Assembly: GCA_903933715.1 (NCBI GenBank)
Contig: CAIZLD010000020.1
Coordinates: 1-32,765 of the forward strand
From: an uncultured Spartobacteria bacterium
GTDB lineage: Bacteria > Verrucomicrobiota > Verrucomicrobiia > Chthoniobacterales > Chthoniobacteraceae
Reading direction: 5' to 3'
DNA: 32,765 nt
The position numbers were made by a program, and so were the translations under genes. Below are positions 585 to 16,342 of the stretch, one piece after another (within the stretch, counting starts at the first letter, position 1; each line of letters begins with the position of its first letter). Below the pieces are notes generated by a model, which was given only the letters and a program-made list of their open reading frames with translations, was not told where the DNA came from and ran no database searches.

Positions 585-3500
585 TTATTGTGCCGAGCGG
601 CGGCGCAGGCGCTGGCCGAAGGCCAACATCCCAATGCCACCCACGACCATCGCCCAAGTGCTCGGCTCCGGAACTACGACAAACTCGCTGTTGTGGTCGA
701 TAACCGCCCACGCAGTGTGTTTGGTGGAATCATACCCGTAGTTGCCCAGTGTCAAATACGCGTCGGAGAAGGCCATATCGCCGTAGTTGCTTCCCGAGGT
801 CAACAGGCTGTTGCCCTCGACCGCGTTCACAAACTTCGTCATGCTCGTGCCGGGTTCAATGTAAGCGATGAAGACCGCGCCGCTGAAGTTCACATCATAG
901 CTCAACTGCAACACGAACAGGTCCGTCAGGTTCGGTGTTGCCATGTCGGGCTGGTGGATTCCGGTCAGTGTGAGGAAGTCGCTCAGAGCGTTGAAGCCAC
1001 CGGCTCCCGCCACCGATGAGGTGCTATCAAACGACATGGTGACCGTCGCGTCTCCGGCAGCCGTGCCACCCAGCAATTCTGCTGTGGTGCCCCGACCTGC
1101 CCCGCTCGTCAGGCCGTAGCCTTTATAACTTGCGGTGGCTGCGAGATTCGCGAATTTCTTTTCATCCCGGTTGTTGCTGACGCTGTCGGTAACTGTCGCA
1201 GTGACTCCGACTGAGCTGCTGTCGCCGGTGCCGCCGCTGATCGCCGCATCCGCCGCCGTTTTGTTGTCAAACGACAGGTTTGCCGTGGCCGTGTAGGTGC
1301 CGTTAAGCCTGTTGCTGTTCAACGTCGCGACTGCCGCCGAGCCGCTTGCCGCGACCAGGTTGCCGGTGCCGGCTGCCGCAAAGTTCCCCGCCTTAACGCC
1401 GGTCAAGGTGTTGCCGGTGATCTTGGCCGCCGCGGTGTAAGTGCCGCCGGTGTTGACCAGATTCAAGCCGTTCGAACTGAGGTTGGCGCGGTCGTACCCA
1501 ATACCGGTGACGTGGATCGTCTCCCCAGTAAGGCCTGTGTTGCCAAGCCCGCTGGTGCCGGTGCCATTCGAGGTGGCGCTCAATACCACGGTGCCGTTGT
1601 GGGTGCCCGAGGTGACGGAGCTAAGCGCGACGGTCAAGCTGGTGCTGTTGCCCGCCGCGATCGAGTTTGCTCCTCCGCTGAAGGTAGCTCCATCCGTTGC
1701 GGCTCCGCTCAGATCGAGTTTCTCGCTGTAGCTGTCACCCGTTGCTGCGGTATTACTTCCGCTCAGAACCCGGCTCTGCGCGTTGCCCGCCATGAAGTTG
1801 CCGAAGTTCACATCGCCCACCGTGTTGACCGAGGCCAATCTGTAGCCGGTGCCGTTGATTGTGACGGTCTGGCCAGTGATATTCGCCGCTCCGAGGCCGC
1901 TGCCGTTCACGGCATTGGATTGCAGAGACAGGACTGTCGTGGCCGACTGGACGCCGGCTCCGGCGCTTGCCCCTGCGCCCACCAGCAAGGTGCCGCTGTC
2001 GCTGCCGCCGCCCGCGATGCCGCCGGCGGTGCCGCTTGCGACGAAGTTATTCGTCGGCGCGCTAAACCCGTTGGTTTGCAGGGTTTCGGTGTAGGTCGCG
2101 TCTGCCGCGGCCGTGTTGGCGATGGTCAGCGCCGTTGTCTTGCCCACGCCAACATGGTAGTTCCCGATGTTGACCGTCTGGGTGGCTGCGGCTGCTGCGA
2201 GCCGGTAGTTATCCACGAAAACCCCCAATCCGGCGCCCGTGCCCGCCCCGCCATCCGCCACTGCGGCGCGATAACCGGCCACGTTACTTACGTCGGTAAA
2301 CGAGCCGCTCTTGGTTCCCGTATAAGTGAAGATTTTGTAGGAACCCACCCCAGCGCCGCCTGCATTAGTCAAAGCCAAGGTGCCGCCGAGCGCGAGGTTA
2401 CCAGTGACATCGGCACGGTCGGAGGAACCCGGAGTGTTGCGGGTGCCCGCGGCTGCCAGTTCAATTTCCGTAATACCAGCAAGAGACAGGCCATTGCCGA
2501 ACGCCACCGTGCCAATCGAGTTGCCGGGGGCCAAGGTGTTGCCCGCAGTGACACTCACGAAATTGCTGATCGCGCCGGTGCCGCTCAGTCTGCCGCCCGT
2601 TCCCGCGAATTCGACGGTCTTGGAAAGCGCCGTGCCGGAGTTGTATTTGAATTCACCCGCGCCGATGCTCACCTTGTTGGTGTTGTTGATCGAACCGCCG
2701 GACCCAATGGCCAGCACGCCTGCGTTCACGGTGGTTACCCCCGTGTAGCTGTTGCTGCCGCTCAGCGTAAATGTTCCGCCGCCAGCCTTGGTCAGGCCAA
2801 GCGCTCCGCCGCCGGTGCCATCGCGAAGCCAGCCCTTGAAGTCTCCAGTATAATTTTTGGAATTACCAACGGTGAGGGTGGCCGCCGTGGCATTCGCATT
2901 TTCAACCACCCCTCTGTAGGTGGCCCCGCTGTTGGTCAATTTGGAAACAGTGACGTTGGTTCCGTTCAGCTGCAAATAGCCGCCATCAGGGGTGGTGTAG
3001 CCAGCTCCGCCGTTATCAAAATCAACCGCATTTTCCGAACCTGCCGTTTTGTTTAGTGCTCCACCATTGGTTATTTTAATGGTAAAGTTCTTACCGATTT
3101 TAATGCCCCCGGTGAAAGTATTGTTTCCACCCAGTTCAATAATCGGAGTTGCATTGGTTGCGGCGGTACCAAACTCCATAGAGCGTGGGGTGCCATCCTC
3201 CCCAATAACCCCAGTAATCTTTGTATTACCGGTAAACGGCTGCGCACGAAAGCGAGTGTCGGCATAAAGCGTGATCTTCCCTTGGTGGGTTCCGCCACCA
3301 AAATAGATCGATCCTCGTGCGCCGCCAAACGTATAGATATTGACGTCGTTTAAATAGGTACCACCCCCATACTGCACAGTAGTCGAATCACCGGGATTGG
3401 CCGCAGACCCGATCGCAACCGTAGCTGACCCAGCGGCATAAGCATTAGCGATGCTTATTGTGTTAAGGTTGGTGGAGCCTGTACGGCTGGTCGTTAAGGT

Positions 3501-4058
3501 CAAAGTTCCAGTAAAGCTATTACTCCCCCCCAATGAAATGCCGGCAGAAGCTGATCCGGCCTGGTTGATAGTCACATTATTCCCGACTAAAACGGAGTTA
3601 ATCGTGCCCACACCGGCTACACCAGCAGTGTCAAATGTTGTGATTGTCGGGTTGGAGCCCCCGAGGTAAATCGTGCCGCTTGAGAGCGTTGTTGTGTATT
3701 TCGAGAAATTGATGCGATTCGCATAGACAGCACCCACTGTGACGGTGGTATTGGACGCAAGCACAAAATTGGCTTCGTTGCTGTAATTCGAGCTATTCCA
3801 TATTGTGTTCTGGGCAGTGCCCCATCTGGTCGTGTCTGTAAGCGTTCCATCCCAGTTTCCTGACCCGCCAGTGTTCCAGGTGTAGCTGGCGGCGTCGGCC
3901 GAGCCTGTCAAAAGCCCAAATGACAGGGCGATGGCGGCCAAAACCGGGGATTTTTGGCCGGGAAGAAGCTTGCGAATCAGACTCTCAGGAGACTGCGGGG
4001 GGATTTGTCGGGAAGATCGGGGTTGGTAATAGGGGTTAGTTTTCATAGAGGCAGCCAT
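585..4058 (-). CDS. PEP-CTERM autotransporter-type surface protein
   Basis: This 1157-residue protein is probably exported and handled at its C terminus by an exosortase-like system. The start ATG at 4058 is chosen because it is soon followed by a basic stretch and a signal peptide (SPVLAAIALSFGLLTGSADAA); the frame stays open to 4241, but that extension does not look like a signal sequence. The mature part is rich in Gly, Ser, Thr, Asn and Ala and has autotransporter-associated beta-strand repeats (for example GTFTLSGSNSYTGVTTVNAG), then repeated segments of about 100 residues resembling choice-of-anchor domains. The C terminus is a clear PEP-CTERM signal: VPEPSTW, a hydrophobic helix, then RLRRRS. 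No beta-barrel translocator follows, so it is not a classical autotransporter. No exosortase gene is in the window. The ligand or role is unknown; adhesion or extracellular matrix are guesses. Confidence 0.85.
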   Translation of the reverse strand: MAASMKTNPYYQPRSSRQIPPQSPESLIRKLLPGQKSPVLAAIALSFGLLTGSADAASYTWNTGGSGNWDGTLTDTTRWGTAQNTIWNSSNYSNEANFVLASNTTVTVGAVYANRINFSKYTTTLSSGTIYLGGSNPTITTFDTAGVAGVGTINSVLVGNNVTINQAGSASAGISLGGSNSFTGTLTLTTSRTGSTNLNTISIANAYAAGSATVAIGSAANPGDSTTVQYGGGTYLNDVNIYTFGGARGSIYFGGGTHQGKITLYADTRFRAQPFTGNTKITGVIGEDGTPRSMEFGTAATNATPIIELGGNNTFTGGIKIGKNFTIKITNGGALNKTAGSENAVDFDNGGAGYTTPDGGYLQLNGTNVTVSKLTNSGATYRGVVENANATAATLTVGNSKNYTGDFKGWLRDGTGGGALGLTKAGGGTFTLSGSNSYTGVTTVNAGVLAIGSGGSINNTNKVSIGAGEFKYNSGTALSKTVEFAGTGGRLSGTGAISNFVSVTAGNTLAPGNSIGTVAFGNGLSLAGITEIELAAAGTRNTPGSSDRADVTGNLALGGTLALTNAGGAGVGSYKIFTYTGTKSGSFTDVSNVAGYRAAVADGGAGTGAGLGVFVDNYRLAAAAATQTVNIGNYHVGVGKTTALTIANTAAADATYTETLQTNGFSAPTNNFVASGTAGGIAGGGSDSGTLLVGAGASAGAGVQSATTVLSLQSNAVNGSGLGAANITGQTVTINGTGYRLASVNTVGDVNFGNFMAGNAQSRVLSGSNTAATGDSYSEKLDLSGAATDGATFSGGANSIAAGNSTSLTVALSSVTSGTHNGTVVLSATSNGTGTSGLGNTGLTGETIHVTGIGYDRANLSSNGLNLVNTGGTYTAAAKITGNTLTGVKAGNFAAAGTGNLVAASGSAAVATLNSNRLNGTYTATANLSFDNKTAADAAISGGTGDSSSVGVTATVTDSVSNNRDEKKFANLAATASYKGYGLTSGAGRGTTAELLGGTAAGDATVTMSFDSTSSVAGAGGFNALSDFLTLTGIHQPDMATPNLTDLFVLQLSYDVNFSGAVFIAYIEPGTSMTKFVNAVEGNSLLTSGSNYGDMAFSDAYLTLGNYGYDSTKHTAWAVIDHNSEFVVVPEPSTWAMVVGGIGMLAFGQRLRRRSAQ

Positions 4059-4627
4059 AATACTTTTTCCCGACCTTGATGTAAGCTTTATTAATTGCGA
4101 AAGGGATTCAGAAATATGCGTTATTGTTTCAGCGGGGTCTCCGTGCTTTCCTGAGAAGAGTAGAAGGCAATAAATCAAAAAAGTCGAGGAGTTTCCAGGC
4201 CTAAGGACACACTGAATAAAGAACGATGGAGCAGAATGCACGTCAGTTTTGGCGGATGCCGCAGCCGCAAGCGGTGGCCTTGTCTGAAGACAGAAGACAA
4301 GGACGCCGAGCGCGGCAATGGCAGACGCTAAAAATCACGCGCAGGCTGCCCGTCGGGATTTGTTCAGCGTGTCCCTAAGCTGAATCGATATTCAGATCGA
4401 GCCAGACCCAAAGGGTTGCGGCGCGGTTTTGAATGTCGAAATTACCTGGCGCCTTGTATCTCGGTTTTTTGGAAAAAGAGAATCCGCAGATTGCGCAGAT
4501 GAACGCAGATTTATACGGAATAATCGGCGAAAATCTGCGCAATCTGCGGTTAACTCCCCTGTCTTGCCTGCGAAAAGCTTCATGATATACGTATACTAGC
4601 GCCTGTCCTGCGACTGTCGTGACGACA
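4059..4627. other. Intergenic region with a nonamer palindrome
   Basis: No gene is supported in this 569-base gap. It holds the 5' side of the PEP-CTERM gene, a small hairpin (4278-4302, 8-bp stem), a patch at 4378-4420 that resembles the reverse complement of about 14866-14910, and a full copy of the nonamer palindrome (4460-4602). No convincing -35/-10 pair for the PEP-CTERM gene was found. Confidence 0.6.
4460..4602 (+). repeat. Nonamer palindrome, copy A (full length)
   Basis: Perfect 17-bp arms (4484-4500 and 4533-4549) are built from the unit ATCTGCGNA. A conserved tail follows (about 4550-4602, including TAACTCCCCTGT and AAGCTTCATGATAT). Copy C at 19031-19174 matches over nearly the whole length. 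It lies just past the 3' end of the AraC gene that ends at 4628. Confidence 0.75.
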
Positions 4628-5599: not shown

Positions 5600-5602
5600 T
5601 TA
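5588..5602 (+). promoter_or_regulatory. Possible -10 box of a near-leaderless promoter
   Basis: TATAAA at 5588-5593 ends 8 bases before the ATG at 5602, so transcription would begin at or just before the start codon. No good -35 box is present at the right distance, and if the AraC gene starts at 5599 the box lies inside its first codons. Confidence 0.3.
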
Positions 5603-6870
5603 TGCAATCTTTTCCATCTCCAGAACCCCAGGTATCCGCTAAAGACCGCGAAATTCTCCGCTCCCTTGCAGGGCGGGTGCGGGAAATAGCCGAATTGCCC
5701 GAGCAGGCCATCCGCAAGCGGCGTTTGACAAATCACAACGCCCTCAAGCCTGAGCGCCCGATCATTCTCGCCTACCCGGAATGCGCCTGGTTGGAGTTGC
5801 TGCCGGAATCTTCGTTGCACTGCGAAGATAAAACGTTGCGTGGCTGGGAACAATCGCTCCGGAAAAAGATCTATTGGTGGGATCACCTGCGGGACGACAA
5901 CACTGTCGAACCGTACTTCAATCTCGGCTGGGATATCGACATGGGAAACTATGGTTTCGATATCGCCTACGAACACGGCGATAACCGCGGCAGCTATCAT
6001 TGGGTTCCACCGCTTCAGGATATTGAAGCGGGCTTTGATCAGTTGAAGCCTGCAATCTTAGCTGTGGATCGCAAAAAAACCCTGGCCCATGTCGGCCTGG
6101 CCACGGAACTTTTTGGCGATCTCCTCCCCACCCGCATCCGCGCGAGCTATTTCTGGACTTCCGGGCTCACTTGGGAAGCCATCAAGCTGATCGGTTTGGA
6201 AACGTTAATGCTCGCCCCCTATGACCAACCCGAAGGACTCCATCGCCTCATGGGTTTCCTGCGCGATGAACATATGCGTTTGCTCAAATGGCTGCAAAGC
6301 GAGGAGTTGCTCTCCGATTGCAATCAAGATGACCACGTAGGTTCTGGCGGCGTCGCCTACACTACTGAACTCCCGCAACCCGGGCGCAAGCCGGGCGATC
6401 CCGTGCGCTTGAAAGACATCTGGGGCTTTGCGGAATCGCAAGAAACCGTGGGGGTTTCCCCGGAAATGTTTAAGGAATTCATTCTCCCCTATCAGCTCCC
6501 CATTCTGGCGGAATTCGGCCTGAGTTGCTACGGCTGCTGCGAGGGACTCCACGACCGGATCGATTCGATCCTCGAAATCCCAAACCTCCGTCGCGTTTCG
6601 GTATCCCCCTGGTGCGAACAAAAGATCATGGCTGACAAGCTCGGGCAAAACTACGTTTTCAGCCGTAAACCCAATCCCACCCAAATCTGCCTCACCTTTA
6701 ATGAAGCCGCCATTCGGGACGATCTGGCGACCACCCTCGGGATCGCAGGGGGCGGTCCCCTGGAAATCATCATGAAAGACACGACAACCGTCCAGAATGA
6801 ACCCTGGCGCATTTCGCGCTGGATCCAAATCGCCTTGGAGGAAGTGGAGAAATACGTTCAGACGCGATAA
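5602..6870 (+). CDS. URO-D-fold protein, probable methyltransferase-like
   Basis: This 422-residue protein belongs to the uroporphyrinogen decarboxylase superfamily, which contains HemE and corrinoid-dependent methyltransferases such as MtaA and MtbA. It is not HemE: its N terminus is long and the HemE substrate-pocket signatures are not seen. Methyltransferases of this fold bind zinc with His-x-Cys and a later Cys. Here the matching place reads YGCCEG (310-315), so the His is replaced by Tyr and two adjacent Cys follow, with another Cys at 338. Metal binding may be altered, or the protein may do a different reaction. It stands alone with a divergent AraC regulator, 1.1 kb before the corrinoid methyltransferase genes. 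It may demethylate an unknown substrate, but no corrinoid partner is directly adjacent. A hairpin with a T-run follows the stop codon. Confidence 0.75.
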   Translation: MQSFPSPEPQVSAKDREILRSLAGRVREIAELPEQAIRKRRLTNHNALKPERPIILAYPECAWLELLPESSLHCEDKTLRGWEQSLRKKIYWWDHLRDDNTVEPYFNLGWDIDMGNYGFDIAYEHGDNRGSYHWVPPLQDIEAGFDQLKPAILAVDRKKTLAHVGLATELFGDLLPTRIRASYFWTSGLTWEAIKLIGLETLMLAPYDQPEGLHRLMGFLRDEHMRLLKWLQSEELLSDCNQDDHVGSGGVAYTTELPQPGRKPGDPVRLKDIWGFAESQETVGVSPEMFKEFILPYQLPILAEFGLSCYGCCEGLHDRIDSILEIPNLRRVSVSPWCEQKIMADKLGQNYVFSRKPNPTQICLTFNEAAIRDDLATTLGIAGGGPLEIIMKDTTTVQNEPWRISRWIQIALEEVEKYVQTR

Positions 6871-7056: not shown

Positions 7057-7917
7057 TCAGCGCCACTGGGAGGGAGCCACTCCGACCTTGCGCTTGAATA
7101 ATCGCGAAAAATAAAGCGAATCTGAAAAACCAACACGGGCGGCCACTTCCGCCACGGGAAGCGTGCCGAGCAATCGTTTGGCCTGATTGAGGCGGAAGTT
7201 AAGGAGATATTGATGCGGGGCGACTCCCGTCGCTTCCTGAAAAAGCCGACGAAAATTGCGATAACCTACGCCGAGTTGCTTTGCCAAAAGTTCGAAACTG
7301 ATCTCTTGGCCCCAATTTTTCCGAATATATCCTAAAGAAGCCTCCACGATCGGGGTTGCCTGTCGGGAATGCATAAAACGGTCCTGATGGAATTTCAGAA
7401 CCATAGCCAAAATTTCCATGACCACACCCGCCTGAATCTGGTTGGAAAAAGGGGATGCCACGCGGGCAATATCCAGGAGGCGGTCAAATCCCTCCGTGAC
7501 TTCGTTGCGTAAACCCACACGCAGCACCGGGGTGTCGACACAAAGCAGATCGTGCATGCACCAATGGTTGGCCAATTCGCCATTAAAGAGTACCCAGCGC
7601 GCCGTCCAACCGGTTTTGGGCGAGGGATAATAATCGTGCCGAATCCCTGGAAAAAGCGCCAGCACATCCCCCTCCTGGACCCGGCGCCACTTGGAATCAT
7701 GCCCTTTGTACGACCCGTGCCCGTCGGTGATATAAATCAGACAATAATCGCGCAAGACCCGCAAAGGGTGGTTGTGCGATGGCCTGGGTTGCTTAGGCTC
7801 CACCTGGCGGCCCACACCGGTGACATAAACTCCCCAAGTTCGTTCCCGGGCGGCAGGAATGTAATCGAAACGCTCTCTTATGGCCATTTTGTCCATATTT
7901 TTGGCCATTGTGTGCAT
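7057..7917 (-). CDS. AraC-family regulator of the methanol locus
   Basis: This 286-residue AraC-type regulator is divergent from the corrinoid operon that begins at 7989, 71 bp away, and is the obvious candidate to control it. The N-terminal half is a cupin-type sensor (about residues 30-130, including HNHPLRVLRDYCLIYITDG and a GDVLALFPGIRHDY strand). The C-terminal half (about 185-286) has two helix-turn-helix motifs, the second being EVAARVGFSDSLYFSRLFKR. Four in-frame ATGs lie within the first 11 codons (7917, 7908, 7896, 7887). The conserved part begins near RFDYIPAARERTWGVYVTG, so a start at 7887 is also possible. Methanol sensing by this family is not established; the effector could be a sugar or a pathway metabolite. 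Confidence 0.85.
   Translation of the reverse strand: MHTMAKNMDKMAIRERFDYIPAARERTWGVYVTGVGRQVEPKQPRPSHNHPLRVLRDYCLIYITDGHGSYKGHDSKWRRVQEGDVLALFPGIRHDYYPSPKTGWTARWVLFNGELANHWCMHDLLCVDTPVLRVGLRNEVTEGFDRLLDIARVASPFSNQIQAGVVMEILAMVLKFHQDRFMHSRQATPIVEASLGYIRKNWGQEISFELLAKQLGVGYRNFRRLFQEATGVAPHQYLLNFRLNQAKRLLGTLPVAEVAARVGFSDSLYFSRLFKRKVGVAPSQWR
7881..7912. promoter_or_regulatory. Candidate AraC operator: direct repeats 21 bp apart
   Basis: TGGCCATTTTG (7881-7891) and TGGCCATTGTG (7902-7912) match at 10 of 11 positions with a 21-bp offset, two helical turns. That is the spacing of direct half-sites bound by AraC-type proteins. A weaker GTCCAT lies between them. The repeats overlap the first codons of the regulator, or its leader if translation starts at 7887. 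Confidence 0.25.
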
Positions 7918-8704: not shown

Positions 8705-10084
8705 ATGCCCAGATACCAAAAACTCGCCATCGTTGATCCAGCGGAATTGCGGTTCGGCATCGCTCCCAACCCGCTGACTACCCGCCATGGAATGACCATC
8801 GGGGGCGGAATCGTCTACCCCGAACTGAACTTTACCCTTCCTCCGATGTTTGTAGACAAAACAACCATCTCGAAGGCTCAAGATCATTATCGACAAATCA
8901 TCGGCGGCGCCTTGCAGCGCGCGGTGGAATTGGAAGCCCCCGGCCTGGTCGTGGAATTCGAAACACTGCCGCCCATGACGGAAAATCCGGAATGGGGGAT
9001 TGATATCGCCAAGATTCTGCTCGAAGCGATGGAAAAGGCCAACACGCAACATGGGCTCAAAAGCGTGCTGCGTATGACCCCCAATGATACCCGGGAAATG
9101 GAACGCCCCCCGGCGATGCGCAGTGGGATGCTTTGGGAAAAGATGCTTGAAACCTTCGAGGGAAGCGCCGCGGCAGGCGCAGAACTGCTCAGCATCGAGT
9201 CGGTCGGCGGCAAGGAAGTCCATGATGACGCGCTCCTGACGGGCGACATTGCTTCGGTGATTTTTGGCCTGTGCGTGATGGGAACGCGCGATATGCGCTT
9301 TTTGTGGAGCCAGCTCGACAAGATCGCCAAGCAGTACGGCGTTCATTGCGCGGGAGACACGGCTTGCGGCTTCGGCAACACGGCCATGGTTCTGGCGGAA
9401 CAGAAAATGATCCCGCGTGTATTCGCAGCCGTTGTGCGGGCGATCAGCGCGGTGCGGACCCTGGTGGGCTATGAATGCGGATGCGTCGGCCCGGGCAAAG
9501 ATTGCGGGTATGAGAACATCATCATGAAAGCCATCACCGGTTTCCCGATGGCCATGGAAGGAAAGACTTCCGCCTGCGCACACCTCAGCCCGCTCGGGAA
9601 CATTGCAGCGGCTGCGTGCGATACCTGGAGCAACGAGTCAGTCCAAAACATCAAACTTCTCGGCGGCATGGCCCCGACGGTCTACCTAGAGCAACTGGTG
9701 TACGACTGCCGGATCATGAACCAGGCTCTCGGCGACGGGCGCGATGCGGCCCTGCTCTATCGCAAATGGTTGGTTAACTCCGACGCCGGTCTCGATCCGC
9801 AGGCATTCGTCCTCACCCCGGAAAGTTCGATCGCCATCGCCCAGTCAATCGTCCAAGCGCCGGACGACTACACTGCCGGCAAACAAGCGGCGCTCACCGC
9901 CATCGAACTGCTGCGGCAAGGCCATCGCAACGGCCTGGTCAGAATCAGTGAAATGGAACTCCCCTGGCTCGATACCATGCGGGAAGCGGTGGAAGACCTT
10001 CCCGCCGACGAAGGGCAGTTTATCTGCCAGATGATGGGCACCCTGGAAACCGAAAAATTCTGCGCGAAAGATTACGAACTTTAA
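8705..10084 (+). CDS. mtaB: Methanol:corrinoid methyltransferase MtaB
   Basis: MtaB breaks the C-O bond of methanol and moves the methyl group to the Co(I) corrinoid of MtaC. This 459-residue protein has the family's usual length (about 460) and many of its characteristic segments: LLSIESVGGKEV (161-172), HCAGDTAC (214-221), GPGKDCGYEN (262-271), MEGKTSACAH and DTWSNESV. In Methanosarcina barkeri MtaB zinc is held by one Glu and two Cys (Glu164, Cys220, Cys269 as I recall). Glu165, Cys221 and Cys267 here lie in the matching motifs, so the active site looks intact. It follows mtaC after 83 bp and precedes the MtaA-like gene by 4 bp. The family assignment is firm; activity on methanol rather than another small alcohol is inferred from the family. 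Confidence 0.93.
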   Translation: MPRYQKLAIVDPAELRFGIAPNPLTTRHGMTIGGGIVYPELNFTLPPMFVDKTTISKAQDHYRQIIGGALQRAVELEAPGLVVEFETLPPMTENPEWGIDIAKILLEAMEKANTQHGLKSVLRMTPNDTREMERPPAMRSGMLWEKMLETFEGSAAAGAELLSIESVGGKEVHDDALLTGDIASVIFGLCVMGTRDMRFLWSQLDKIAKQYGVHCAGDTACGFGNTAMVLAEQKMIPRVFAAVVRAISAVRTLVGYECGCVGPGKDCGYENIIMKAITGFPMAMEGKTSACAHLSPLGNIAAAACDTWSNESVQNIKLLGGMAPTVYLEQLVYDCRIMNQALGDGRDAALLYRKWLVNSDAGLDPQAFVLTPESSIAIAQSIVQAPDDYTAGKQAALTAIELLRQGHRNGLVRISEMELPWLDTMREAVEDLPADEGQFICQMMGTLETEKFCAKDYEL

Positions 10085-10088
10085 AAAT

Positions 10089-11114
10089 ATGGATCGCTCT
10101 TATTATCTCGAACTGGCCGAATCCGGCCTGAAAATGCCCATCGGCACCCACCTCGTCCTCCACGAACACGCCGACGCCGAAGCGATCTTGCTGGAAGGAG
10201 AACGCCTGGGCTCCGTTGTGGAGGAAGCGGCCCGCACCTTCGGCGCTCCCATGGCCATCCCGGTGATGGACTTGAAACTCGAAAAAGAAGCGTTGCTGAG
10301 TTCTCATGGCGTGCCGGAGGCCGAAATCGACCAATTCCATTTCAAGGAAGCCCCGGAGCAGGATTGGGCTGTTTCCGCAACGCCCCGGATGAAAGCCACA
10401 TGCGAGGCGATCAGCCATGTGGCAAAAAACGGGGAATTTCTCCCTGTCGGCATGGGCATCGGGCCGTTTTCGCTGATGACCAAACTGGTCTCGGACCCGA
10501 TCACCCCCGTCTTCCTCGCCGGAGCGGGAAGCACCGCCGAGGAGGACGAGGAAGTGCATCTCGTCGAGCGCACGCTGGCGCTGGCCATGAACGCCATATT
10601 GCCTTATCTCGAGGCCCAGATTAAAGCCGGAGCCAAAGCGATCATCCTCTGCGAACCGGCGGCGAACATGGTCTACTTTTCGCCCAACCAGCTCGCGGAA
10701 AGCTATGAAATCTTTGACCGCTACGTCATGGAGCCCAACCGTCGGATCAAGGCGCTGCTCGACGCGCACAACGTGGATATGATCTTCCACGACTGCGGCG
10801 AACTGCAAAATGAAATGGTGAGCCGCTTTGCCACGCTTAACCCGGCTATGATGAGCCTTGGCAGTTCCCGGATGCTCTGGGAAGACGCGGCGCTCGTCCC
10901 CAACGACATCGTGCTTTACGGCAACCTGCCGACGAAGAAATTCTACTCCGATTCGCTCGTCAGCCAGGAAGATGTGCGGCAGCTTTCGGCCGAACTGACC
11001 CGGCGCATGCGTGCGACCGGCCATCCGTTCATCCTGGGCAGCGAGTGCGACGTGCTCAGCGTGCCCGGCGCGGAGGCAACCATCAAGGCAAAGGTCGAGG
11101 CCTTTCTGAAATAA
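10089..11114 (+). CDS. URO-D-fold methylcorrinoid methyltransferase, MtaA-like
   Basis: This 341-residue protein has the URO-D fold and the zinc motif of MtaA/MtbA-type methyltransferases: His234-x-Cys236 (FHDCGEL) and a later Cys320 (GSECD). In methanogens MtaA passes the methyl group from MtaC to coenzyme M. In acetogens such as Acetobacterium woodii a related protein passes it to tetrahydrofolate. No coenzyme M genes are seen here, so tetrahydrofolate or another thiol is more likely, but the sequence does not settle the acceptor. The zinc motif would activate a thiol directly, which leaves room for a thiol acceptor. The gene starts 4 bases after mtaB and is surely cotranscribed with it. 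A perfect 12-bp hairpin follows the stop codon. Confidence 0.85.
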   Translation: MDRSYYLELAESGLKMPIGTHLVLHEHADAEAILLEGERLGSVVEEAARTFGAPMAIPVMDLKLEKEALLSSHGVPEAEIDQFHFKEAPEQDWAVSATPRMKATCEAISHVAKNGEFLPVGMGIGPFSLMTKLVSDPITPVFLAGAGSTAEEDEEVHLVERTLALAMNAILPYLEAQIKAGAKAIILCEPAANMVYFSPNQLAESYEIFDRYVMEPNRRIKALLDAHNVDMIFHDCGELQNEMVSRFATLNPAMMSLGSSRMLWEDAALVPNDIVLYGNLPTKKFYSDSLVSQEDVRQLSAELTRRMRATGHPFILGSECDVLSVPGAEATIKAKVEAFLK

Positions 11115-11145
11115 GCCGCACCTTCCGGCAACGCAAATTGCAATG

Positions 11146-11177
11146 AACGCCCTCGCCATCTCCGGCGAGGGCGTTTA
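11146..11177 (+). terminator. Perfect hairpin between the MtaA-like and homocysteine methyltransferase genes
   Basis: AACGCCCTCGCC (11146-11157) pairs perfectly with 11164-11175 around a 6-base loop. Only a weak T-rich stretch (TATACTTTT) follows. It could be a partial terminator that lowers expression of the distal genes, or an mRNA processing or stability structure. It ends about 15 bases before the next start codon. Confidence 0.5.
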
Positions 11178-11189
11178 TACTTTTCGCCT

Positions 11190-12074
11190 ATGACCGATCT
11201 TCTGGTTGCATTAAATACGCGTCCGCTTCTTTGTGATGGGGCGATGGGAACCCAGCTCATGGATTGCGGCCTCGGCAGCGGTGATTGCGGAATGCTTTGG
11301 AACACCCTCCATTCCAATCGGGTCCGCGGCATTCATCAATTTTACGCCGAGGCGGGCTGCAATCTCCTGACGACCAACACCTTTGGGGGAACCTCCTATG
11401 CGCTGGATCGCCACGGTCTCGCCGACCATGTCCTGAAACTCAACCGTGCCGGGGCACAGGTCGCGAGAGAGGCTATCGGAAAATCCGGCTGGGTGCTTGG
11501 CGACGTGGGGCCGTTTGGGGATTTTATGGAACCCCTGGGCCAAACGTCCGCAGACGAACTCTGCGCCATGTTCCGCGAACAGATTGCCGCGCTTGCGGAA
11601 GGCGGCGTGGATGCCATTCTCATTGAAACGATGAGCGATCCTGCCGAAATGGAAGTCGCCATCGCCGCTTCAAAACAAGCCGCCAGCCTGCCCATTATTG
11701 GAACCTACGCTTTCCAGAAATCGGGGGAAACGGGCTTTCGCACCATGATGGGCGCCCCCGTGAAGGAAGCCATCGAACGGGCCATTGCCGCCGGAGCGGA
11801 TATCGTGGGAACCAATTGCGGTGTGGAGCTTTCCTTTGGCGACTACCTGGAGCTTGCACGCCAAATCGTGAGCGCAGCGGGGAAAACTCCGGTCATCTTG
11901 CAGCCAAACGCCGGCTCGCCTCAACTCGTCAACGGAGAAATCATTTACAACGCAACTCCAGAGGAAATGGCCGCGCTGACTGCAGATTTGCTGGACGCGG
12001 GAGTCCGCATCGTGGGAGGATGCTGCGGAACCAACCCTGGCCACCTTGCGGCAATGAGTCGCAGGATTGGTTGA
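11190..12074 (+). CDS. Homocysteine S-methyltransferase family protein
   Basis: This 294-residue protein matches the homocysteine-binding, zinc-dependent barrel domain found at the N terminus of methionine synthase MetH and in BHMT/MmuM enzymes. The start DGAMGTQL (16-23), the TNTFGG motif (62-67) and the three zinc cysteines are present: Cys210 in GTNCG, and Cys278-Cys279 in GGCCGTNP. It has no folate- or B12-binding domain of its own, so its methyl donor must be another protein or molecule. Next to MtaB and MtaC the natural idea is that methyl-MtaC is the donor and methionine the product. Alternatively it is an S-methylmethionine or betaine-type enzyme. A hairpin separates it from the upstream gene; the DUF1638 gene follows after 10 bases. 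Confidence 0.85.
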   Translation: MTDLLVALNTRPLLCDGAMGTQLMDCGLGSGDCGMLWNTLHSNRVRGIHQFYAEAGCNLLTTNTFGGTSYALDRHGLADHVLKLNRAGAQVAREAIGKSGWVLGDVGPFGDFMEPLGQTSADELCAMFREQIAALAEGGVDAILIETMSDPAEMEVAIAASKQAASLPIIGTYAFQKSGETGFRTMMGAPVKEAIERAIAAGADIVGTNCGVELSFGDYLELARQIVSAAGKTPVILQPNAGSPQLVNGEIIYNATPEEMAALTADLLDAGVRIVGGCCGTNPGHLAAMSRRIG

Positions 12075-12084
12075 TCGCCCCCCA

Positions 12085-12840
12085 ATGAAAATTGCCGTTC
12101 TGACTTGCGATGTCCTGACCGATGAAGTGAAGCACTTTTGCCGCGACTTGCCCGAGGTGGCGCGGGTCGAGGTGATCGAACAAGGGTTGCACAATACCCC
12201 CGGCCTTTTACGCGAACGGCTCCAGGCGGCCATTTTGGCAACGGAAGAAGACCCGGACATCGATGCCATCGTTCTAGTCTACGGCCTTTGCAGCCGGGGC
12301 ATCGAGGGCATCAGCGCGCGTCGTTGCCGGATCGTTATCGCGCGGGCGCATGACTGCATCACGCTGCTCCTCGGCTCCAAAGAACGCTATGCCGAATATG
12401 TGGCGCGCCATCCCGGCACCTACTGGTACAGCCCGGGCTGGAACCGATGCCATCTCCCGCCCGGGAAAGAACGCGTTGAAAAACTCAAACGCGAATATGT
12501 CGAAAAATATGGCGAGGAGAACGCCGATTACCTGATGGAAATGGAGCAGGATTGGCTGCGCGCCTACAATCGCGCCACGTATGTCGGTTTCGACGCCGCG
12601 GCCGCTCAAGCCGATGCCGAATATACAAAGCAATGCGCCGACTGGCTCGGTTGGAGCTTCGATTCCCAGCAGGGGGATGCGCAATTGCTGCGCGATCTCC
12701 TTTCCGGGCACTGGGACTCGGGCCGTTTTCTTGTATTGGAACCGGGAGAAACCGTCCGGTTCACCGTAGACGATTCCATTCTCGCCGCCATGCCATGCGG
12801 CGGAAATTGTTCAGTCCAACCCGGTGCGGCACAGCAATGA
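12085..12840 (+). CDS. DUF1638 protein, companion of corrinoid methyltransferases
   Basis: This 251-residue protein resembles the DUF1638 family, which has no established biochemical role and is often encoded beside corrinoid methyltransferases. Recognisable features are the N-terminal MKIAVLTCDVL strand, VYGLCSRGIEG (65-75), ARAHDCITLLLGSKERY (86-102) and a Cys-rich end (AMPCGGNC). Several Cys and His residues (Cys8, Cys69, His89, Cys91, Cys122, Cys238, Cys242) could bind metal or a cofactor; this is inference. The ATG at 12085 is chosen over an upstream TTG at 12067. The stop codon overlaps the start of the reductive activator in ATGA, so the two are probably translationally coupled and may work together, for example in corrinoid loading or repair. 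Confidence 0.8.
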   Translation: MKIAVLTCDVLTDEVKHFCRDLPEVARVEVIEQGLHNTPGLLRERLQAAILATEEDPDIDAIVLVYGLCSRGIEGISARRCRIVIARAHDCITLLLGSKERYAEYVARHPGTYWYSPGWNRCHLPPGKERVEKLKREYVEKYGEENADYLMEMEQDWLRAYNRATYVGFDAAAAQADAEYTKQCADWLGWSFDSQQGDAQLLRDLLSGHWDSGRFLVLEPGETVRFTVDDSILAAMPCGGNCSVQPGAAQQ

Positions 12841-14905: not shown

Positions 14906-16342
14906 CTAGCAGACTCTTGCGATGTCGAGATTGAGCAGTTTTCCGAGCTTCTGGAGCCGATCGCCAATATGGCCGACCCCGACGGCGCAATGGTGAGCCG
15001 GGCCGTGTGCATTCCACCCTTCGACGAAAGCTCGAGCGCCAATCGGGAACCGATAACGGCTATTGGTGTTGCCGATTTCCAAAATCGGCCCGGGGACTGA
15101 TTCGCCTTCCGCAACGAGCAGGGAAAGCTTCCCATTTTTTTGCTCAACCACGGAGAGCAAAGTGACGGGGCCATGCTTTACCATCATTTCCACGGAGAGA
15201 CCTTTCCCGACTTTTCCATGGTATACCTTCAAGGGGCGCACCTTGGTTTTTCCGGCGGCAATGGCGATATGCCCGGGGCCGTCATGCCCCATAAGAACCA
15301 CATCGTCTTTAAAATCCATCGCGTAATATTCGGTGAACGACCCTCCGACGCCGAAGCTGTCGAGGATTTTCATGGCCTGGACGTTTTTGACTTCGTATTC
15401 ACCAGCCACCGGCACACCTCTGGCGGTGAGCAGAGAGTTTCCAAGGATCACGGAACTCATGACATCCTCCAACTCCGCGATACCGCTGCCCATGTGGTAA
15501 TAGGCCAGAGAGCCGAGCTGTTTGTTTTCCACCAGTTGATCCAGCGCGAGGGAGGTGCGCGCGGCCCGCAGCAATTCCTCTTCCGAGCAGTCGGGCTGGA
15601 CCTCAAACACTTCCCGGAATTTCGCAACCCGTTCGATCGCCAATTTTTCCGGGATATCCCGGCGCAACGCGGCGAGTTCCTCGACCTCGACGATTTCCAT
15701 GTGGCCGCCGAAGGTGGCGACCTGCAAGGTGATGTCGCTGGCGATATCCAGCATGCCATTATAATAATGGCCCATGAGTCCCATTCGGTTATGGGCCATG
15801 ATCGAGGCGACCCGGGCGGCTTCGATCCACTGGTCGATCTCTTTCCACACCACAGCATCCCCCTCGAGTATCCCTGTGACTTGGTGGAAATCCACCCCTG
15901 CGCGATTAAACACGTTGGCGATTTCAGGCACCGGGCAGGATGAACAATAGGACAGCCATTCCCCCGTCATTTGAGTTCTGTCGCCGAGGGCATTGAATCG
16001 GGCGTAGTCGATGGCTGCCTCGGGCTGGAGATTCAATACAATCACCGGCACCTTGGCCCGGCGCACCACCGGAAGCACCGTGGAAGAAAGCGCGTAAGTG
16101 GTGACATACAAGAAAATGATGTCCACATCCTCTCTCCGGAACTGGTGCCCGGCATCCATGGCTTTTTCCGGTGAGTCGATCAGGCCAAGATTGACGACTT
16201 CCACCCCGGGCCGTTCAAGTTTCGAGGCGACGGTCTGGAGATAGCCCTCCAGACGTTTTTTTAATCCCTCAAACTGGGACCAGTAGGTGTCCAAGCCGAT
16301 TCCAAACAAACCAACACGCAGGGCAGAGGGGGATGTTTTCAT
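14906..16342 (-). CDS. L-arabinose/L-fucose isomerase-family protein
   Basis: This 478-residue protein resembles the L-arabinose isomerase branch of the fucose/arabinose isomerase superfamily, which interconvert aldose and ketose sugars using Mn2+. The N-terminal Rossmann-like part begins RVGLFGIGLDTYW. Likely metal ligands are Glu315 (VAGEYEV), Glu338 (GSFTEYYAMDF), His353 (LMGHDGPGH) and His450 or His451 (GPAHHCAVG). These places correspond to Glu306, Glu333, His350 and His450 in E. coli AraA. The sequence is distant from E. coli AraA, so the substrate may be another sugar. It is divergent from an AraC regulator (ATG at 16342, 193 bp away). No kinase or epimerase for an arabinose pathway is next to it. 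Its last codons run close to the repeat region downstream. Confidence 0.8.
   Translation of the reverse strand: MKTSPSALRVGLFGIGLDTYWSQFEGLKKRLEGYLQTVASKLERPGVEVVNLGLIDSPEKAMDAGHQFRREDVDIIFLYVTTYALSSTVLPVVRRAKVPVIVLNLQPEAAIDYARFNALGDRTQMTGEWLSYCSSCPVPEIANVFNRAGVDFHQVTGILEGDAVVWKEIDQWIEAARVASIMAHNRMGLMGHYYNGMLDIASDITLQVATFGGHMEIVEVEELAALRRDIPEKLAIERVAKFREVFEVQPDCSEEELLRAARTSLALDQLVENKQLGSLAYYHMGSGIAELEDVMSSVILGNSLLTARGVPVAGEYEVKNVQAMKILDSFGVGGSFTEYYAMDFKDDVVLMGHDGPGHIAIAAGKTKVRPLKVYHGKVGKGLSVEMMVKHGPVTLLSVVEQKNGKLSLLVAEGESVPGPILEIGNTNSRYRFPIGARAFVEGWNAHGPAHHCAVGVGHIGDRLQKLGKLLNLDIARVC

Follow-up and report, generated by a model that had tools for sequence, protein, structure and literature searches.

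The window—the whole stretch of DNA analysed, 32,765 nucleotides from an uncultured Spartobacteria bacterium—belongs to a draft genome of 2.8 Mb in 77 contigs that is 97% complete. It carries a run of forward-strand genes encoding, in order, a corrinoid protein, MtaB, a URO-D superfamily protein, a stand-alone homocysteine methyltransferase (hereafter HMT), a DUF1638 protein and a RACo-type corrinoid activase (Table 1). The successive intergenic gaps are 83, 4, 75, 10 and −4 bp; given the last two, the HMT gene is closely coupled to both corrinoid-reactivation genes (DUF1638 and RACo). The preliminary description of this locus placed the URO-D and HMT open reading frames at exactly the coordinates listed here, and overlooked the DUF1638 and RACo genes immediately 3' of the HMT gene.

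Table 1. Features of the cluster in the window, with strand and supporting evidence.
Feature	Position	Strand	Evidence
AraC-type regulator, divergent from the corrinoid protein gene	7057..7917	-	64 bits against an in-house HMM of AraC neighbours
Corrinoid protein, MtaC/MtgC-like, 210 aa	7989..8621	+	PF02310 101 bits, PF02607 81 bits, DxHxxG at residue 99
MtaB, methanol:corrinoid methyltransferase, 459 aa, methyl-donor side	8705..10084	+	PF12176 553 bits
URO-D superfamily protein with H-x-C...C triad, 341 aa	10089..11114	+	PF01208 60 bits
Hairpin between the URO-D and HMT genes	11143..11178		z -6.4
Stand-alone homocysteine methyltransferase (HMT), MetH/MtgE type, 294 aa, proposed methyl acceptor side	11190..12074	+	PF02574 219 bits, residues 13-292
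DUF1638 protein	12085..12840	+	PF07796 136 bits; 10 bp 3' of the HMT gene
RACo-type corrinoid activase, 540 aa	12837..14459	+	PF14574 212 bits, PF17651 149 bits; ATG overlaps the DUF1638 stop by 4 bp

The corrinoid protein consists of a B12-binding cap and a B12-binding domain. Its top NCBIfam model is MtgC_2 (199 bits), with MtaC at 121 bits, and every score lies below the respective cut-off. MtaB matches the NCBIfam model MtaB_Meth over its full length at 428 bits, missing the cut-off of 720. By their Pfam domains, then, the MtaB and corrinoid protein components of an MtaABC system are present, with the NCBIfam equivalog cut-offs missed. The divergent AraC-type regulator is, judged by position alone, probably a local one.

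Several other features lie around the cluster. On its 5' side, positions 5602–6870 (forward strand) encode a 422-aa protein for which Pfam, NCBIfam and PDB gave no match and which has, by eye only, the appearance of a diverged URO-D-type methyltransferase. A distant fucose/arabinose isomerase-like protein is encoded at 14906–16342 (reverse strand), and three AraC-type regulators surround the cluster; these genes possibly link it to sugar metabolism. Near the start of the window, one long perfect hairpin occurs in two copies (187–218 and 478–511) beside the gene for a large PATR/PEP-CTERM protein (585–4241).

The gap between the URO-D and HMT genes contains a hairpin, as the preliminary description had noted: a perfect 12-bp stem (11146–11175), extending to 15 pairs with its flanks (11143–11178), around a loop of 6. 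Its folding energy is well below that of 200 shuffled sequences (z = −6.4), and it sits in the 75-bp gap 5' of the HMT gene. Searches within the window returned neither a second copy (up to 3 mismatches) nor an Rfam match, and on these grounds a dispersed repeat or Rfam family was rejected. The structure is terminator-like, but its T run is poor; with a T-poor tail and no place in the terminator scan list, it does not qualify as a clear intrinsic terminator. A promoter-like match overlaps it, but such matches are no more frequent than chance predicts (2 found against 2.1). The hairpin may separate the HMT–DUF1638–RACo genes from mtaCBA and might, as the preliminary description suggested, set the ratio of the two genes on either side of it.

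A Pfam domain search of the HMT protein reveals PF02574 as its sole domain; no B12, pterin or activation domain was found, in agreement with the earlier reading of a stand-alone homocysteine methyltransferase domain lacking B12 and folate domains of its own. The protein is thus not a full-length MetH, which combines its homocysteine domain with pterin, B12 and activation domains in a single chain. Its zinc cysteines (C210, C278 and C279) are kept in 30 of 30 aligned relatives, and its nearest named relatives are from Verrucomicrobiota. Among solved relatives, the best match is the homocysteine domain of Thermotoga MetH (145 bits), ahead of BHMT (55 bits) and MmuM (49 bits). The predicted model (mean pLDDT 95) gives the same order: it superposes on Thermotoga MetH with bound Zn and homocysteine at a TM-score of 0.90 and 1.6 Å, against 0.82 for BHMT and 0.78 for MmuM. 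In a tree of 97 domains—built by a quick method, with several weak branches, one MetH row outside the MetH clade, and MetH labels that we assigned from genome searches—HMTs of the window's kind do not group with the well-supported MetH clade, with HMT-MTHFR fusions or with MmuM, which forms a distant outgroup. The 97 rows are what remained of 124 after 27 were removed by hand, mostly near copies (marine Chloroflexota, Sporolactobacillus) and some second copies. A closest kinship with BHMT or MmuM was not found by sequence, by fold or in the tree (which is without BHMT). Judged by sequence and predicted fold, HMT is of the MetH type. With its zinc cysteines, it has the make-up of the homocysteine component of a split methionine synthase, and the stand-alone corrinoid protein, RACo-like and DUF1638 components are likewise present.

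The URO-D protein is harder to place. The preliminary description called it an MtaA-like zinc methyltransferase, which holds at the level of the superfamily and of its H-x-C...C triad (H234, C236 and C320, kept in 14 of 14 aligned sequences) and goes no further: the NCBIfam model MtaA_Meth gives 21 bits against a cut-off of 400, a single-sequence search at E 0.001 gave no PDB match, and a URO-D subfamily profile gave matches at E 0.03 to 0.1 only. In a fold search, which shows that methanogen MtaA shares its fold, MtaA (TM up to 0.67) and UroD (up to 0.68) are not separated. Known O-demethylases were not matched by the subfamily profile; CdmB was matched at E 1e-4 by a mixed profile made up mainly of other URO-D proteins. 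Among 12 genomes, relatives are close in six (its own included), distant in one and absent from five. Relatives 53–69% identical occur in four other genomes, each with an HMT gene within 2 kb.

Its suggested part in a branch to folate was not borne out. The genome has three PF00809 genes—MetH and two single-domain dihydropteroate synthases—and no pterin-type methyl-corrinoid:folate transferase was recognised in it outside MetH; a folate branch via a pterin-type acceptor was therefore rejected for this genome, which also lacks the stand-alone methyl-folate:corrinoid (pterin) component of a split methionine synthase. Because the URO-D protein is not of the pterin type that bacteria use for folate, and no stand-alone pterin-type acceptor was found in the genome, the folate branch is unsupported. 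Acetogenesis was rejected as well, on the absence of an FTHFS match in the genome. By sequence, HMT is the sole recognisable acceptor enzyme at the locus. The URO-D protein may be an accessory, on the side either of a thiol acceptor or of a second methyl donor.

We surveyed 80 loci encoding HMT relatives (L025–L104). In 44 of them a corrinoid protein gene is found no more than 5 kb from HMT, and in the other 36, many of which are short, none is; outside a marine group of 29 loci with its own layout, the count is 16/51. Where at least 9.5 kb was available on both sides, a corrinoid protein lies within 5 kb in 24/37 loci and at 5–10 kb in none (0/37); without the marine group, the figures are 9/22 and 0/22. 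Corrinoid protein genes thus cluster near the HMT relatives and are far rarer in the outer flanks of these loci. The coupling can be tight: in L029 the HMT start and the corrinoid protein stop share 4 bp, RACo and HMT likewise share 4 bp in L110, and L112 has a single operon-like run of corrinoid protein, RACo, MtaB, HMT and DUF1638 with gaps of 10, −4, 122 and −4 bp.

Three other arrangements were encountered. The marine group, from Chloroflexota and SAR324 (29/80 loci; e.g., L060 and L095), has the order Virulence_fact, HMT, a ~225-aa protein without a Pfam match, URO-D, corrinoid protein and RACo, and has the look of a further split methionine synthase or demethylase. In Victivallis, a member of another phylum, a three-part form (L047, 9260–11859) joins a corrinoid protein, HMT and a pterin methyltransferase. 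Since that genome, whose completeness is not stated, shows no MetH, no other PF02574 gene and no PF01717/MetE match, this locus may be its only methionine synthase. Finally, on a Gemmatirosa plasmid (L174, 2725–8912) the genes for URO-D, a corrinoid protein, RACo and HMT stand together.

MtaB and HMT occur together in six loci: the window, L025, L032, L037, L110 and L112. On the 97-row tree, whose label 'other' takes in short loci, this combination is scattered, requiring six changes, of which at least five are forced by well-supported branches; the linkage has therefore been gained, or lost, repeatedly. It is recurrent rather than obligatory, since among the 14 MtaB genomes found in 387 genomes of the phylum, a set in which several contigs are short, three have HMT at the MtaB locus and 11 do not. 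An obligatory linkage was rejected on the same count. In Spirochaetota, MtaB occurs in 2/392 genomes and HMT is linked to it in one of the two. Within the window's class, two or more PF02574 genes are found in 4/5 MtaB genomes, compared with 16/104 other genomes with a match (one-sided p 0.004, from counts made by eye that exclude genomes without a match, and taking no account of kinship); elsewhere in the phylum two copies are common and the contrast is not apparent.

The preliminary description had named a complete MetH elsewhere in the genome as evidence against its proposal. Such a gene was looked for and found: it encodes 1213 aa with homocysteine, pterin and activation domains, and its B12 part was recognised by matching the corrinoid protein of the window. 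MetF is also present, and no PF01717 methionine synthase was found in the genome. Given the complete MetH, a second synthase is not needed, though there may be one all the same: in Sinorhizobium meliloti, a MetH with a standard activation domain is reported beside RamA-like and DUF1638 proteins (PMC5764234). Each of the other five genomes with MtaB–HMT loci likewise has an open frame for a full-length MetH or MetE; the possibility that HMT is the sole methionine synthase of the L037 genome was rejected on the presence of MetE.

Taken together, the MetH-type HMT, the neighbouring corrinoid proteins, the presence of four of the five genes that Phaeobacter needs for its split methionine synthase and the six MtaB–HMT loci lead us to infer a methanol-fed, folate-free variant of a split methionine synthase; the preliminary description had likewise proposed a split, methanol-fed analogue of MetH. 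We put the chances of this reading at about even. MtaB, occupying the place of the folate piece of a split methionine synthase, would pass the methyl group of methanol to the corrinoid protein. HMT would dock on the corrinoid protein and transfer the methyl group from methyl-Co(III) onto zinc-bound homocysteine, giving methionine, while RACo, aided by the DUF1638 protein, would re-reduce corrinoid that has slipped to Co(II). The presumed purpose is a supply of methionine and SAM that spares MetF and folate while methanol is present. Counting against a methanol pathway are the complete MetH, the full-length MetH or MetE frames of the other five MtaB–HMT genomes, the sub-cut-off score of MtaB, the ambiguous role of the URO-D protein, the hairpin as a possible break between the HMT genes and mtaCBA, the MtaB loci of the phylum that mostly lack HMT, and the HMT relatives that have other donors or none. 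The wider claim—that methanol is turned directly into methionine, with no folate step, by a recurrent module repeatedly assembled in Verrucomicrobiota and Spirochaetota, in parallel to a complete MetH or MetE—we hold somewhat more tentatively, at a little under even chances.

Other readings turn largely on the URO-D protein. The methyl group of methanol might go mainly to another acceptor (folate or some thiol) through this protein, with HMT only tapping the corrinoid protein for methionine, a form of the division between folate and methionine raised in the preliminary description. The zinc-type triad in 14/14 sequences, the position of the gene just 4 bp 3' of mtaB and the fold shared with methanogen MtaA are as expected if so. 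However, the folate-methylating MtaA of Moorella is described as a 29.7-kDa protein (PMC13391211), and a 2026 study groups bacterial MtaA with AcsE, MtvA and MetH, while the URO-D proteins to which it gives a role in bacterial systems (CdmB, MtvB and OdmB) are donor-side enzymes (PMC13222342). In addition, FTHFS was not found in the genome, and searching at E 1e-5 brought up no relative of the window's URO-D protein in any part of three MtaB–HMT genomes (G115, G387 and G393). The methanol and homocysteine parts can therefore occur where it is absent. Likewise, the preprint on the mlp gene cluster describes clusters that encode MtaA-like proteins but no folate methyltransferase (PMC10418091). 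We regard this reading as unlikely. Alternatively, the URO-D protein could be a second donor-side enzyme, feeding methyl groups from a methoxy or other methyl compound onto MtaB's corrinoid protein and leaving HMT as the sole acceptor. Loci L028 and L030, which carry a corrinoid protein, a URO-D relative and HMT without MtaB, fit this idea, as does the presence of URO-D relatives within 2 kb of HMT in five of the six genomes that have one (a sample partly picked for HMT). Yet the triad also fits a zinc-thiol acceptor, and no sequence link to known O-demethylases emerged beyond the mixed-profile match to CdmB; we judge it decidedly improbable.

A further explanation removes HMT from the pathway altogether: it would be an ordinary methyl-salvage enzyme, using S-methylmethionine or betaine as donor and lying at the locus by chance. 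In favour of salvage, methionine is already supplied by the complete MetH, the NCBIfam betaine–homocysteine S-methyltransferase model gives HMT 236 bits (short of the 338 it requires), and MmuM and BHMT belong to the same Pfam family. Against it stand the greater distance of BHMT and MmuM by sequence and fold, the outgroup position of MmuM, and the repeated linkage of HMT to corrinoid proteins and activases. Moreover, the case has been made that rhizobial 'Bmt' is MtgE, part of a split methionine synthase (PMC12478193). Chance placement of a salvage enzyme therefore strikes us as a poor prospect.

If the methanol-fed split synthase is real, one-carbon units from methanol reach methionine and SAM while bypassing folate, making environmental methanol a direct source of their methyl groups. 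The 2025 finding of a corrinoid protein common to a demethylase and a split methionine synthase would then apply to methanol as well as to glycine betaine, and to phyla that were not central to that study. Among open-licence papers, we found no published description of an MtaB–HMT cluster or of a folate-free route from methanol to methionine.

The closest known systems each share part of this arrangement. The MtaABC systems of acetogens and methanogens have in common with it MtaB and the corrinoid protein; their acceptor is folate, via an MtaA of ~30 kDa (PMC13391211), or coenzyme M, via a URO-D-type MtaA, whereas here HMT and a distant URO-D protein are found. In Phaeobacter inhibens, HMT, a corrinoid protein, a pterin protein, a RACo-like DUF4445 protein and a DUF1638 protein are all reported to be required for methionine (PMC5764234). 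Four of these five—the PF02574, corrinoid, RACo-like DUF4445 and DUF1638 proteins—are encoded here; unlike P. inhibens as described there, the window has MtaB in place of the pterin piece (PF00809), and its host also has a complete MetH. MtgBCDE of Ruegeria pomeroyi is reported to use one corrinoid protein for both glycine betaine demethylation and methionine synthesis, the authors sending methyl groups by folate via the pterin protein MtgD (PMC12478193). The sharing of a corrinoid protein between demethylase and HMT, as proposed here, and the RamA-like and DUF1638 proteins are common to both; the donor differs (glycine betaine in R. pomeroyi, putatively methanol in the window), no MtgD-like gene was found here, and most Mtg genomes are described as being without MetH (PMC12478193). 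Lastly, the core methionine synthases MesA, MesB and MesC, as presented in PMC7857596, resemble the proposed pathway in making methionine without folate, probably from a corrinoid protein; they are MetE-type catalytic domains, whereas the window's HMT is a MetH-type domain.
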